A DNA stretch of 64,000 nt from NCBI GenBank assembly GCA_902598525.1, contig CACKBZ010000001.1, positions 1-64,000 of the forward strand, written 5' to 3'. Shown piece by piece: positions 53,490 through 58,195 of this stretch; position 1 is the stretch's first letter, and each line of letters starts with the position of its first letter. The position numbers and the translations under genes were made by a program. A model generated the notes under the pieces. That model worked only from the letters and a program-made list of their open reading frames with translations, made no database searches and was not told the DNA's origin. The stretch comes from an uncultured Bacteroidota bacterium (lineage in GTDB: Bacteria; Bacteroidota; Bacteroidia; Flavobacteriales; Flavobacteriaceae).

Positions 53490-54092
53490 TTAAAGTTCTT
53501 TTTTAATCATTGATAATATTGATTCGTAATCTGATTTTTTCTCGACAAAATCCATATCATCAACATTGATTTTTAAGAGCTTACCGTTGTCATAATTTGT
53601 TATCCAAGCCTCATATCTTTCATTTAATCTACTCAGATATTCTATACTAATAGTTTTCTCATACTCTCTTCCCCTTTTATGAATTTTGTTAACTAGGTTA
53701 GGGATACTACTTTGAAGGTAAATTAAAAGATCTGGTGGTTTGACAAGATTAAGCATAGTATCAAAAAGTGATAAATAATTATCATAATCTCTTTGAGGCA
53801 TTAAGCCCATTGCATTTAAATTGGGTGCAAAAATAAATGCATCCTCATAAATTGTTCTATCTTGAATTACGTTAACGTTGCTTTTTTCAATATCAAGAAG
53901 TTGCTTAAATCTACTATTTAAAAAATAAATTTGAAGATTAAAAGACCATCTTTCCATATGACTGTAGAAGTCATCTAAATATGGATTTGCAATTACATCT
54001 TCATAATATGGTTTATATTTTAAGCTTTTAGATAGTTGCTTGGTTAAACTTGTTTTTCCAGCACCAATATTTCCTGCAATTGCTATTCTCAT
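53490..54092 (-). CDS. Deoxynucleoside kinase
   Basis: Salvage kinase phosphorylating deoxynucleosides in the cytoplasm. A 200-residue dNK-family protein: P-loop AIAGNIGAGKTSL, the ERWSFNLQIYFL helix, the DRT (DRS-type) motif in IQDRTIYEDAFIFA, and a basic lid RGREYE. Specificity (dA/dG or dC) cannot be read. I start at the ATG at 54092, since the frame's upstream TTG at 54104 adds four residues before the usual MRIAIAGNIG start. Confidence 0.92.
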   Translation of the reverse strand: MRIAIAGNIGAGKTSLTKQLSKSLKYKPYYEDVIANPYLDDFYSHMERWSFNLQIYFLNSRFKQLLDIEKSNVNVIQDRTIYEDAFIFAPNLNAMGLMPQRDYDNYLSLFDTMLNLVKPPDLLIYLQSSIPNLVNKIHKRGREYEKTISIEYLSRLNERYEAWITNYDNGKLLKINVDDMDFVEKKSDYESILSMIKKEL

Positions 54093-54140
54093 AATTTTTG
54101 CCAAAATAGTAGGTTTTTTTTAAAGAAAAAAGCATAATAA

Positions 54141-54170
54141 TTTGAAATAATATTTATTTAATTAATTTTG
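54141..54170 (+). promoter_or_regulatory. Promoter of the metK operon
   Basis: TTTG (54141-54144), an 18-base spacer and TAATTTTG (54163-54170). Transcription would begin about 54176, immediately before the first arm of the folded leader. There is a 108-base interval from the box to the metK ATG. Confidence 0.65.
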
Positions 54171-54175
54171 TTTCC

Positions 54176-54278
54176 AATAGAGGAAGGATTTGACTGATTG
54201 CAACCTCTTAAAAAAATTGCTAAAGCAGTAATTCTTTTAAAGCAATCACGTCTTCTTTTTCCTCACAAATTTAAAATT
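54176..54278 (+). promoter_or_regulatory. Structured 5' leader of metK, candidate SAM-responsive riboswitch
   Basis: Nested complementary arms: P1 GAGGAAGGA (54180-54188) with TTTTTCCTC (54256-54264); P2 GACTGATTGC (54192-54201) with GCAATCACGTC (54242-54252), one bulged C; P3 TTAAAA (54208-54213) with TTTTAA (54235-54240); P4 TGC/GCA around TAAA (54218-54227). An alternative helix AGAGG (54179-54183) with CCTCT (54204-54208) excludes P1. GCAACC and TGCTAA recall the S-box core, but the rest does not match it, so the class is open. The 3' arm of P1 lies 15 bases from the ATG. Confidence 0.55.
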
Positions 54279-55532
54279 ATGCCGTATTTATTTACGTCTG
54301 AATCTGTGGGTGAAGGACACCCTGATAAAGTCTCTGATCAGATCAGTGACGGGATCTTAGATAATTTTCTAGCTTTTGATCCAAATTCAAAAGTAGCCTG
54401 TGAAACATTAGTCACAACTGGACAAGTTATTTTATCTGGTGAGGTTACCAGTTCTACATATGTAGATGTGCAGAATGTAGCTAGAGAAATAATCAAGGAT
54501 ATTGGATATAATAATGATTTGTACAAATTCTCAGGGGAATCTTGTGCTGTTATGTCATTGATTCATGAGCAGTCAGAAGATATTTTAAGAGGAATAGAAA
54601 CAAATATAAAGGAGTATCAAGGTGCAGGAGATCAAGGAATAATGTTTGGTTATGCATGTAATGAAACTGAAAACAGTATTCCTCTAACTTTAGATATTGC
54701 TAATAAATTACTTTTTGAACTTTCACGTTTGAGAAGATCAAAAACAATTCCCTATTTAAGACCTGACTCAAAGTCTCAAGTTACTATTGAATATGATGAA
54801 AATGACAATCCGTTAAGAGTAGATACAATTGTAATTTCAACTCAACATGATGAGTTTGATAGCGATGATAAAAAAATGTTGGATAAAATAAGACAAGATA
54901 TAATTGAGATATTAATTCCAATTGTTAAGGAAAGTTATCCTGAAAGTATTCAAAAATTATTTGATGATAGTATTAAATACCATGTTAATCCAACTGGAAA
55001 ATTTGTTATAGGTGGACCAAATGGAGATACAGGCTTAACTGGACGAAAAATAATTATTGACACTTATGGTGGAAGAGGAGCTCATGGAGGTGGGTCCTTT
55101 AGTGGAAAAGATCCTAGTAAAGTTGATAGAAGTGCAGCATATGCGGCAAGACATATATCCAAGAATTTAGTTAAAGCAGGTGTGTCTGACGAAATTTTAA
55201 TTCAAGTAGGATATGCTATTGGAGTTGCTGAGCCAGTATCACTTAATGTAAATACATGTGGTAAATCAAAATTAAATATTTCAGATTCTAAACTATCGAA
55301 TATTGTCAAAGAGATATTTGACTTAAAACCTCACTCGATAGAATCAAGATTTAAGTTGAGAGATCCAATATATCTTGAAACTGCCTCATATGGGCATATG
55401 GGTAGAAAATCTGAAAAAAAAACTAAAACCTTTGACTCAAAATATTCTGGAGTTAAAAAAATCGAGGTTGAGCTTTTCCCTTGGGAGAAGCTAGAATATG
55501 TTGAACAAATAATTAAATCACTAAAACTATGA
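54279..55532 (+). CDS. metK: S-adenosylmethionine synthase
   Basis: Makes SAM from methionine and ATP. Start at the ATG at 54279 gives the family N-terminus MPYLFTSESVGEGHPDKVSD; a TTG at 54198 in the same frame lies inside the folded leader and is rejected. Other motifs: GAGDQGIMFGYAC, the P-loop-like GGRGAHGGGSFSGKDPSKVDRS and the active-site loop RPDSKSQVT. Length 417. The metY gene overlaps by 4 bp, giving a four-gene methionine operon. Confidence 0.97.
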   Translation: MPYLFTSESVGEGHPDKVSDQISDGILDNFLAFDPNSKVACETLVTTGQVILSGEVTSSTYVDVQNVAREIIKDIGYNNDLYKFSGESCAVMSLIHEQSEDILRGIETNIKEYQGAGDQGIMFGYACNETENSIPLTLDIANKLLFELSRLRRSKTIPYLRPDSKSQVTIEYDENDNPLRVDTIVISTQHDEFDSDDKKMLDKIRQDIIEILIPIVKESYPESIQKLFDDSIKYHVNPTGKFVIGGPNGDTGLTGRKIIIDTYGGRGAHGGGSFSGKDPSKVDRSAAYAARHISKNLVKAGVSDEILIQVGYAIGVAEPVSLNVNTCGKSKLNISDSKLSNIVKEIFDLKPHSIESRFKLRDPIYLETASYGHMGRKSEKKTKTFDSKYSGVKKIEVELFPWEKLEYVEQIIKSLKL

Positions 55533-56800
55533 ATCAAAATGATCAAACACTTGCATTACATGCAGGTCACAACACAACAAAGACTGAGGGGACAAGAGCT
55601 GTTCCTATTTATCAAACTACATCTTATGTATTTAATGATACTGACCACGCTGCTAATTTATTTTCATTAGCAGAACCTGGATATATTTATACTAGACTAA
55701 ATAATCCAACAGCTGATATTCTTGAACAAAGATTGGCTTCTTTGGAAGGAGGAATCGCGGCAGTTGCAACATCATCAGGATCTGCTGCTCTGGCTACAAC
55801 TCTTTTAACATTATTGAAAACTGGAGATCATATTGTAGCCTCAAATAGTCTATATGGAGGAACTTATAATTTATTAAATGTTACACTTCCGAGGTATGGC
55901 ATAACCACAACATTTGTAGACCCTGATGATCAAAATAATTTTTCTCAAGCAATTAAAGAAAACACTAGGGCTGTATATATTGAAAGTATTGGTAATCCTA
56001 AACTGGATATATTAGATGTTGAATCCATATCCAAAATTGCCAAAAAGGCAAAACTCCCACTAATAGTTGATAACACTGTAGCTACTCCATATTTATTAAA
56101 ACCAATTGATTATGGTGCAGATATTGTAATTCACTCTACTACAAAATACATAACGGGAAATGGAACTTCAATAGGAGGTATTATAATTGATGCTGGTAGA
56201 TTTGACTGGAGTAGTGGACTATTTAGTGAATTCACTGAACCATCTGCCGGATATCATGGTCTTGTATATCATGATGCACTTGGACCTGCAGCATTTATTG
56301 CAAAAGTTAGAATTGAGGGACTAAGAGATCTTGGTAGTGCTCCAAGCCCGTTTAATTGCTTTCAAACAATTCAAGGATTAGAAACCCTATCTGTAAGAAT
56401 TAAGAAACACTCTGAGAATGCATTGAAAGTTGCAGAGTGGCTTGAAACTCAAGATGAGGTAGCATGGGTAAATTATCCAGGTCTCAAATCATCTAAATAT
56501 TATGATCTTTCAAAGAAATATCTAAAGGGAGGCCAAAGCGGAATTGTTACTTTTGGATTAAAAGGCGGGTTTGAGTCAGCAAAAAAATTGACAGATAGTA
56601 CCAAAATATTTTCTTTGCTTGCAAACTTTGGTGACTCCAAATCTTTAATAATTCATCCTTCAAGCACGACTCATCAACAATTAAATGAGGATCAGCAAAA
56701 ATCTACAGGGGTTACATCAGATCTAGTAAGGCTGAGTATAGGACTTGAAGACCCTAATGATCTAATTAATGATCTAAAAGAGGCAATTAAGTCTATATAA
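55529..56800 (+). CDS. metY: O-acetylhomoserine sulfhydrylase
   Basis: PLP enzyme that joins sulfide with O-acetylhomoserine to form homocysteine. Cys/Met-metabolism family, 423 residues, with GYIYTRLNNPT, the SSGSAA turn, the SNSLYGGT motif, the PLP lysine K206 in IHSTTKYITGNG, and HPSSTTHQQL near the C-terminus. A cysteine synthase side activity is common in this class. It overlaps metK (ATGA) and precedes metX by 1 bp, so the acetyl donor and sulfur steps are encoded together. Confidence 0.95.
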   Translation: MNQNDQTLALHAGHNTTKTEGTRAVPIYQTTSYVFNDTDHAANLFSLAEPGYIYTRLNNPTADILEQRLASLEGGIAAVATSSGSAALATTLLTLLKTGDHIVASNSLYGGTYNLLNVTLPRYGITTTFVDPDDQNNFSQAIKENTRAVYIESIGNPKLDILDVESISKIAKKAKLPLIVDNTVATPYLLKPIDYGADIVIHSTTKYITGNGTSIGGIIIDAGRFDWSSGLFSEFTEPSAGYHGLVYHDALGPAAFIAKVRIEGLRDLGSAPSPFNCFQTIQGLETLSVRIKKHSENALKVAEWLETQDEVAWVNYPGLKSSKYYDLSKKYLKGGQSGIVTFGLKGGFESAKKLTDSTKIFSLLANFGDSKSLIIHPSSTTHQQLNEDQQKSTGVTSDLVRLSIGLEDPNDLINDLKEAIKSI

Positions 56801-56801
56801 T

Positions 56802-57767
56802 TTGGAAGATGAATTAAAACATATTTTAATCGAAGATTTTGAAATTCAATCAGGATTCAAAATCAAAAAGATTGAACTTACGTATCAAATCTTTGGTATG
56901 CCTATTGGGAGTTCTCCAGTTATTCTTATAAATCATGCTTTGACTGGAAACTCACTTGTCTCAGGTAAGAATGGATGGTGGAAAGATATTGTAGGCGATA
57001 ATAAACCTGTAGATACAAAAAAATTTACTGTAATATGTTTTAATCTACCTGGTAATGGATTTAATGAAAATGGTTTTGATTATTCTCTAAATATTAATTT
57101 GGGTGATGTAGCCTTATTATTTATTGAGGCATTAGAAAAATTAAAAATTTCTAATTTATTTGCAATAACTGGAGGCTCAATTGGAGGATGTCTTACTTGG
57201 GAAATGTTAGCTATTAAAAATGATATTGCCGATAAAATAATCCCTATTGCTGCAGATTGGAAGGCTAATGATTGGTTAATCGCAAATACCTATCTCCAAG
57301 ATAGAATTCTTGAAAATTCTAAAAACCCAGTTGCAGATGCTAGAATTCATGCTATGACTTTCTACAGAACACCAAAGTCTTTAAATGAAAGATTTAAAAG
57401 AACAATAAATAATGATAAAGGTATATTTAATGTAGAATCATGGCTTGATCACCACGGAGTAAAGTTACATCAAAGATTTAGTCTTGATTCGTATAAATTT
57501 TTAAATAAACTATTAAGATCATCAGATATAACTAGAGATGGTATTAGTTTTGAGAGGAAAATTCAAAATGTAAAATCAAAAATAGATATAATATCAGTTG
57601 ATACTGATATATTCTTTCTTCCTGAGGAAGATTACGAAACTACATCTATTCTGAAGTCGAATAAAGTTCCTGTTAATAATCACATTATAAAATCAATTCA
57701 TGGACATGATGCTTTTTTAATTGAAACCAATCAAATTTCAGATATCTTTACAAAAATTTTAAAATAA
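56802..57767 (+). CDS. metX: Homoserine O-acetyltransferase-like alpha/beta hydrolase
   Basis: Acetylates homoserine for MetY (assigned from fold plus context). Alpha/beta hydrolase of 321 residues: INHALTGNS oxyanion segment, nucleophile S126 in GGSIGGCLTWEM, the acid in SVDTDIFFLPEED and His in IHGHDAFL. Length is below the usual 350-370 of MetX but the key motifs are all there. No ATG fits this frame before residue 33, so a TTG at 56802 is used. The last base of its stop is the first base of the next ATG (TAATG). Confidence 0.88.
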   Translation: MEDELKHILIEDFEIQSGFKIKKIELTYQIFGMPIGSSPVILINHALTGNSLVSGKNGWWKDIVGDNKPVDTKKFTVICFNLPGNGFNENGFDYSLNINLGDVALLFIEALEKLKISNLFAITGGSIGGCLTWEMLAIKNDIADKIIPIAADWKANDWLIANTYLQDRILENSKNPVADARIHAMTFYRTPKSLNERFKRTINNDKGIFNVESWLDHHGVKLHQRFSLDSYKFLNKLLRSSDITRDGISFERKIQNVKSKIDIISVDTDIFFLPEEDYETTSILKSNKVPVNNHIIKSIHGHDAFLIETNQISDIFTKILK

Positions 57768-58195
57768 TGGCAATTTACTTAGATAGAGTCAACGACAAAT
57801 ACCTATTTGAATTATCAAATGAAAATGGACATAAAGTTCATTTGGATAGAAAATACTCACCAGACTATCAAGTTCAAGGAGCCAGCCCAATGGAGCTTCT
57901 ACTTATGGGAGTTGCGGGTTGCAGTAGTATAGATATCATTTCTATTTTAGAAAAACAAAAGCTAGATCCTAAATCATACAAAATGGAAGTCAATGGTGAA
58001 AGAGAATCAGAACCAGGTAGACCTTATAAGAGGATTCATGTAAAACTATTGATTGAAGGAGAAATTCCAGGTGATAAAATAATTCGTGCAGCATCACTAA
58101 GTTTTGATAAGTATTGTTCCGTTTCTAAAAACCTTGAGAAATCAACTTTGATAGAACACTCAATTTATCTTAATGGAGAGCTTATCAAAAAATAG
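57767..58195 (+). CDS. OsmC family protein
   Basis: A 142-residue OsmC/Ohr-fold protein. Both redox-active cysteines are present, C50 in the VAGCSSIDI helix and a second in FDKYCSVSKNL. The family includes organic peroxide reductases, but many members have unknown thiol roles. Its place as fourth gene of the methionine operon suggests a function tied to sulfur metabolism; that is inference. It ends 48 bp before the pheA leader ATG. Confidence 0.92.
   Translation: MAIYLDRVNDKYLFELSNENGHKVHLDRKYSPDYQVQGASPMELLLMGVAGCSSIDIISILEKQKLDPKSYKMEVNGERESEPGRPYKRIHVKLLIEGEIPGDKIIRAASLSFDKYCSVSKNLEKSTLIEHSIYLNGELIKK

Follow-up and report, generated by a model that had tools for sequence, protein, structure and literature searches.

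In the window, the 64,000-nucleotide stretch of DNA from an uncultured Bacteroidota bacterium analysed here, a leader of about 103 nt carrying a SAM-II riboswitch aptamer precedes metK, the gene for methionine adenosyltransferase, which is followed by metY, a MetX-like gene and an osmC-like gene (Table 1). The four genes abut or overlap and are thus likely to form an operon. The UUG at 54198 that the mechanical ORF list gives as a start falls within the aptamer; metK does not begin there. The MetX-like protein reaches about half of the MetX equivalog cut-off and is possibly a diverged homoserine acyltransferase; its listed start is TTG, with no ATG.

Direct reading of the region 54141-54278 bore out the original prediction as far as the sequence features of the leader (54174-54278) are concerned, including the two-element promoter and a predicted RNA 5' end near 54176. 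A TAnnTTTG-like box is found close upstream of the SAM-II aptamer in 38 of 44 related leaders, indicating that the aptamer usually forms the extreme 5' end of the RNA. The strong self-complementarity and all the helices originally named are also present: the leader folds with an energy of -30.8 kcal/mol against a mean of -15.8 for shuffled sequences (z -5.4), and none of 200 shuffles does as well.

Table 1. Positions of features in the window and, in the last six rows, of paired riboswitches in related genomes
Feature	Position	Strand	Basis
Bacteroidota-type promoter	54141..54170	+	TTTG 54141-54144; TAATTTTG 54163-54170; 18-nt spacer; read directly
SAM-II riboswitch aptamer (RF01726)	54174..54233	+	79.5 bits, gathering score 44, model positions 1-60 of 60
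Aptamer stem P1 (GAGG ... CCTC) and loop	54180..54208	+	consensus structure line
Pseudoknot P2, ACUG in P1 loop with CAGU after GCUAAAG	54193..54228	+	by eye on SAM-II consensus
Anti-aptamer hairpin (ligand-free fold)	54180..54264	+	minimum-energy fold, cross-genus pairing, genus alignment
Anti-aptamer helix, 9 bp	54180-54188/54256-54264	+	minimum-energy fold
Anti-aptamer helix, 10 bp with one-base bulge	54192-54201/54242-54252	+	minimum-energy fold
Anti-aptamer helix, AU-rich	54208-54213/54235-54240	+	minimum-energy fold
Anti-aptamer hairpin, fourth helix	54215-54221/54227-54233	+	minimum-energy fold
A/U-rich stretch before metK start codon	54265..54278	+	open in ligand-free fold (predicted folding)
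metK, methionine adenosyltransferase (SAM synthetase)	54279..55532	+	TIGR01034 504 bits, cut-off 309; ATG 54279
metY, O-acetylhomoserine sulfhydrylase	55529..56800	+	TIGR01326 638 bits, cut-off 495
MetX-like alpha/beta hydrolase	56802..57767	+	best match NF001209 175.6 bits, below cut-off 331
OsmC-like protein gene	57767..58195	+	PF02566 66 bits
Back-to-back SAM-I/SAM-II	G046:C2:100719-100942 (L164)		
Back-to-back SAM-I/SAM-II	G056:C8:82739-82979 (L165)		
Back-to-back SAM-I/SAM-II	G058:C28:31664-31888		
Back-to-back SAM-I/SAM-II	G029:C15:69083-69391 (L168)		
Back-to-back SAM-I/SAM-II	G049:C1:210772-211065 (L166)		
Back-to-back SAM-I/SAM-II	G033:C20:212988-213484 (L167)		

The leader as a SAM-II riboswitch

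A scan with all Rfam families identified a single riboswitch in the window, the RF01726 SAM-II aptamer, which aligns over its full length with no broken pairs and with the consensus letters matched throughout the binding core. P2 is complete (ACUG/CAGU) and the aptamer lies directly upstream of a SAM-metabolism gene, metK; class, position and gene are all direct results of the computation. SAM-I, SAM-IV, SAM-V, SAM-VI, SAM/SAH and SAH models gave no match in the window at the gathering score and none up to an E-value of 10 within 53900-54500. RF01726 was described as 'SAM-II long loops' with a distribution in Bacteroidetes and marine sequences (Weinberg et al. 2010, PMC2864571), which fits a host whose MetK relatives belong to the Flavobacteriaceae and other Bacteroidota. 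The leader is almost certainly a clear member of the known SAM-II class, in the form found in Bacteroidota, with a feedback role on SAM synthesis, and its sequence suggests that this copy would bind SAM. No experimental study of SAM-II in Bacteroidota was found in a literature search.

The original prediction had left the leader unassigned, as a possible new or diverged SAM class, and had proposed running the Rfam covariance models as a check. That check has now been made, and a full-length match so far above the gathering score refutes the proposal and removes the novelty. The further statement that the core was missing apart from S-box-like elements is wrong, because all 60 positions of RF01726 are matched and the whole SAM-II core is present; the resemblance of GCAACC and TGCTAA to the S-box is incidental. 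What survives is the idea of a SAM-responsive switch ahead of the metK operon, which the SAM-II match and its predicted ligand support.

As a riboswitch class there is nothing new here: this is an ordinary, strong SAM-II member in the expected place. It shares with RF01726 the 60-position match, P1, the core strands GAUUUGA, AUUGCAA and UGCUAAAG, the marine Bacteroidota host and the SAM-metabolism gene, and differs in nothing within the aptamer, the window copy being of the short-loop kind, which lacks the hairpins inserted in some relatives. RF00521 (SAM_alpha; S. meliloti metA and metZ, PMC9373788) has GAUUUG, UUGCA, GCUAAA and the H-type pseudoknot layout in common with the leader, but those switches end in terminators or cover the Shine-Dalgarno sequence, whereas the window leader has neither. 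SAM-I (S-box, RF00162) shares the ligand and the kind of genes controlled, and GCAACC occurs in its core too, but its architecture is different and it has no match in the window or its genome. SAM/SAH (RF01727) is likewise a small SAM-binding RNA found directly upstream of metK (PMC2864571) but is known from Rhodobacterales only and has no match here.

Comparison of 59 distinct short-loop aptamers reveals covariation in P1, where GAGG/CCTC alternates with GTGG/CCAC: the third pair is A-U in 34 and U-A in 25, with no break, and the inner four pairs are paired in all 59. The P2 pairs were counted in a simple fixed register, to which Bacteroidales-type aptamers are ill suited; each of the four is standard in 38-49 of the 59. 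Where GCTTGC replaces GATTGC (L032, L033, L035, L038, L045, L047, L049 and L069), the usual CUG/CAG pairing is not obtained in that register, and these aptamers may pair P2 differently.

Distribution of SAM-II and SAM-I in relatives

Of 60 related genomes, 50 carry an RF01726 match, nearly always a single one; in a sample of 247 genomes from across the class, 34 have matches. Altogether 79 loci were extracted. In 75 of them the start of the following gene was readable: it encoded a MetK N-terminus in 74 and a MetY-like protein in one. Some aptamers (L053-L059, L067, L076, L077 and L079) carry inserted sequence in a loop, partly as hairpins, that extends them to 79-108 nt. The long aptamers score 45-64 bits, several of them near the cut-off, and further members are therefore likely to have been missed by the RF01726 model.

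Both SAM-I (RF00162) and SAM-II are present in 22 of the 60 relatives; a 2007 survey recorded no species with both (PMC2258182). At least six relatives have them arranged back to back, on opposite strands and separated by 66-309 nt (Table 1), between metK on the SAM-II side and a methionine gene on the SAM-I side, the latter being metH-like, metY-like or a related PLP-enzyme gene (named by eye in five). SAM-I is absent from all 25 genomes of the window's own genus. In a genome of this genus, a second copy of SAM-II (73.1 bits; L169, positions 1349-1409, G024:C39; also L060) is followed by two short genes and then by two genes resembling the halves of metH. As the genus lacks SAM-I, SAM-II may have taken charge of the metH side, which in relatives is under SAM-I.

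Alternative folds of the leader

The original prediction of a switch with two exclusive folds was right about their existence, but had the folds the wrong way round. The 9-bp helix that it called P1 is the anti-aptamer helix of the ligand-free fold and a competitor of the true P1, whilst the AGAGG/CCTCT helix that it regarded as competing, although present, is the aptamer P1 itself. When folding of the growing transcript was modelled, the probability of aptamer P1 was 0.98 until about 54234 and close to zero once 54252 had been copied, with the anti-aptamer hairpin complete by 54264; the calculation includes neither ligand nor pseudoknot energy, making the switch point approximate. Since P1 is displaced only after about 54234, SAM would have a short time window in which to act.

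Comparison of one leader per genus shows the anti-aptamer design to be conserved. The sequence from the end of the aptamer to the start codon paired with the aptamer more than dinucleotide shuffles of that sequence did (z 8.7, 40 genera), and 39 of the 40 leaders lay above their own null mean. The excess was strongest for the P2-to-UUGC strand (z 8.6) and the P1-to-GAUUUG strand (z 5.8), whilst a reversed-sequence control remained at null level (12.7 pairs against 22.4 observed). In the genus alignment, 87% of hairpin cells are paired, compared with 39-64% when one side is slid. Because aptamer-downstream complementarity exceeds that of shuffles across so many genera, a two-state switch is well supported by these folding models.

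Two other accounts of the leader have to be set against this evidence. That it represents a new or strongly diverged SAM riboswitch class might be argued from RF00521, the alphaproteobacterial SAM-II model, which on its own would miss the leader (18 bits, cut-off 36), but the idea is hardly credible given that RF01726, the model covering the Bacteroidetes and marine form, matches from end to end. Even less credible is a chance hairpin without function, an account that conservation refutes. The leader is AT-rich and formal covariation of the hairpin is weak within the genus, the latter because the aptamer strand is fixed and changes are mostly one-sided; against chance stand the stability of the fold relative to shuffles, the near invariance of the aptamer within the genus whilst its flanks vary, and the excess of aptamer-downstream pairing across genera.

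Control of the metK operon

In the SAM-II switch that we favour, the RNA would begin at the aptamer and, whilst the aptamer alone had been copied, P1 would form and SAM could lock the P2 pseudoknot. Were SAM scarce, the next stretch of RNA would pair with the aptamer strands to form the anti-aptamer hairpin, destroying the aptamer and leaving the A/U-rich metK start region open, so that expression would be on. With SAM bound the aptamer would persist, and the released 3' strand (54245-54273) could base-pair over the start region and the first codons, partly covering the translation start and turning down metK, metY, the MetX-like gene and osmC, most likely at translation. The direction of control would thus be that of negative feedback on SAM synthesis.

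Predicted folding is consistent with this scheme. With the aptamer blocked, the 18 bases preceding the metK start codon in the window are predicted to be less open (0.38 against 0.68), the free 3' strand (54254-54273) pairing with 54299-54317 and closing over the start codon. Across 39 genera the openness of the start region, free minus bound, exceeds that of shuffles (z 5.35), a significant but slight support, with a mean change in openness of only 0.04; some leaders (L003, L025) show the opposite change. The fold energies used omit the pseudoknot and SAM. Start-region pairing may be a by-product of pyrimidine-rich strands fitted to a purine-rich aptamer. Pairing between the post-aptamer and coding regions alone, considered as a conserved off-state, was not above chance across genera (z -0.9).

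None of 41 leaders has an intrinsic terminator after the aptamer, where chance would give about 0.3, and none is present in the window region. Sequestration of a Shine-Dalgarno sequence was also considered and rejected, there being no such sequence before the start codon and GAGG occurring only in the 5' arm of the aptamer. This absence is to be expected, since Bacteroidetes naturally lack Shine-Dalgarno sequences; in F. johnsoniae, initiation is tuned by adenines at -3, -6, -12 and -13 and by local structure (PMC6847099). With neither terminator nor Shine-Dalgarno sequence, the openness results favour translational control, to which we give somewhat better than an even chance.

The same aptamer might instead act on transcription or on the message itself. 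Termination would follow if SAM exposed the pyrimidine-rich stretch 54245-54265 and Rho could load there ahead of metK translation. The 50 leader bases that follow the aptamer are pyrimidine-rich and, when the aptamer is blocked, do not fold by themselves (0.0 kcal/mol), and many SAM-II switches elsewhere act through termination (PMC2258182). We consider this unlikely, as intrinsic terminators are lacking throughout, Rho dependence is a guess and the stretch is short. A shade less likely still is an effect on mRNA stability, in which the anti-aptamer hairpin, starting 4 bases after the predicted 5' end, would protect the message and the SAM-bound form would decay differently. S. meliloti SAM-II mRNAs do change in stability with SAM level (PMC9373788), but they are stabilised rather than destabilised at high SAM, and the bound aptamer would itself be a 5' structure.

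Returning to translational control, we tentatively suggest, at rather less than an even chance, that the SAM-II metK leaders of Bacteroidota share an expression platform: everything in the leader downstream of the aptamer would be roughly complementary to it, and SAM would set the openness of an A/U-rich start rather than acting through a Shine-Dalgarno sequence or a terminator. We found no description of such a platform in the literature searched, which was mostly outside subscription journals. As a compact case of riboswitch control in a phylum where Shine-Dalgarno sequences are rarely used, the leader matters a little: it has neither such a sequence nor a terminator.
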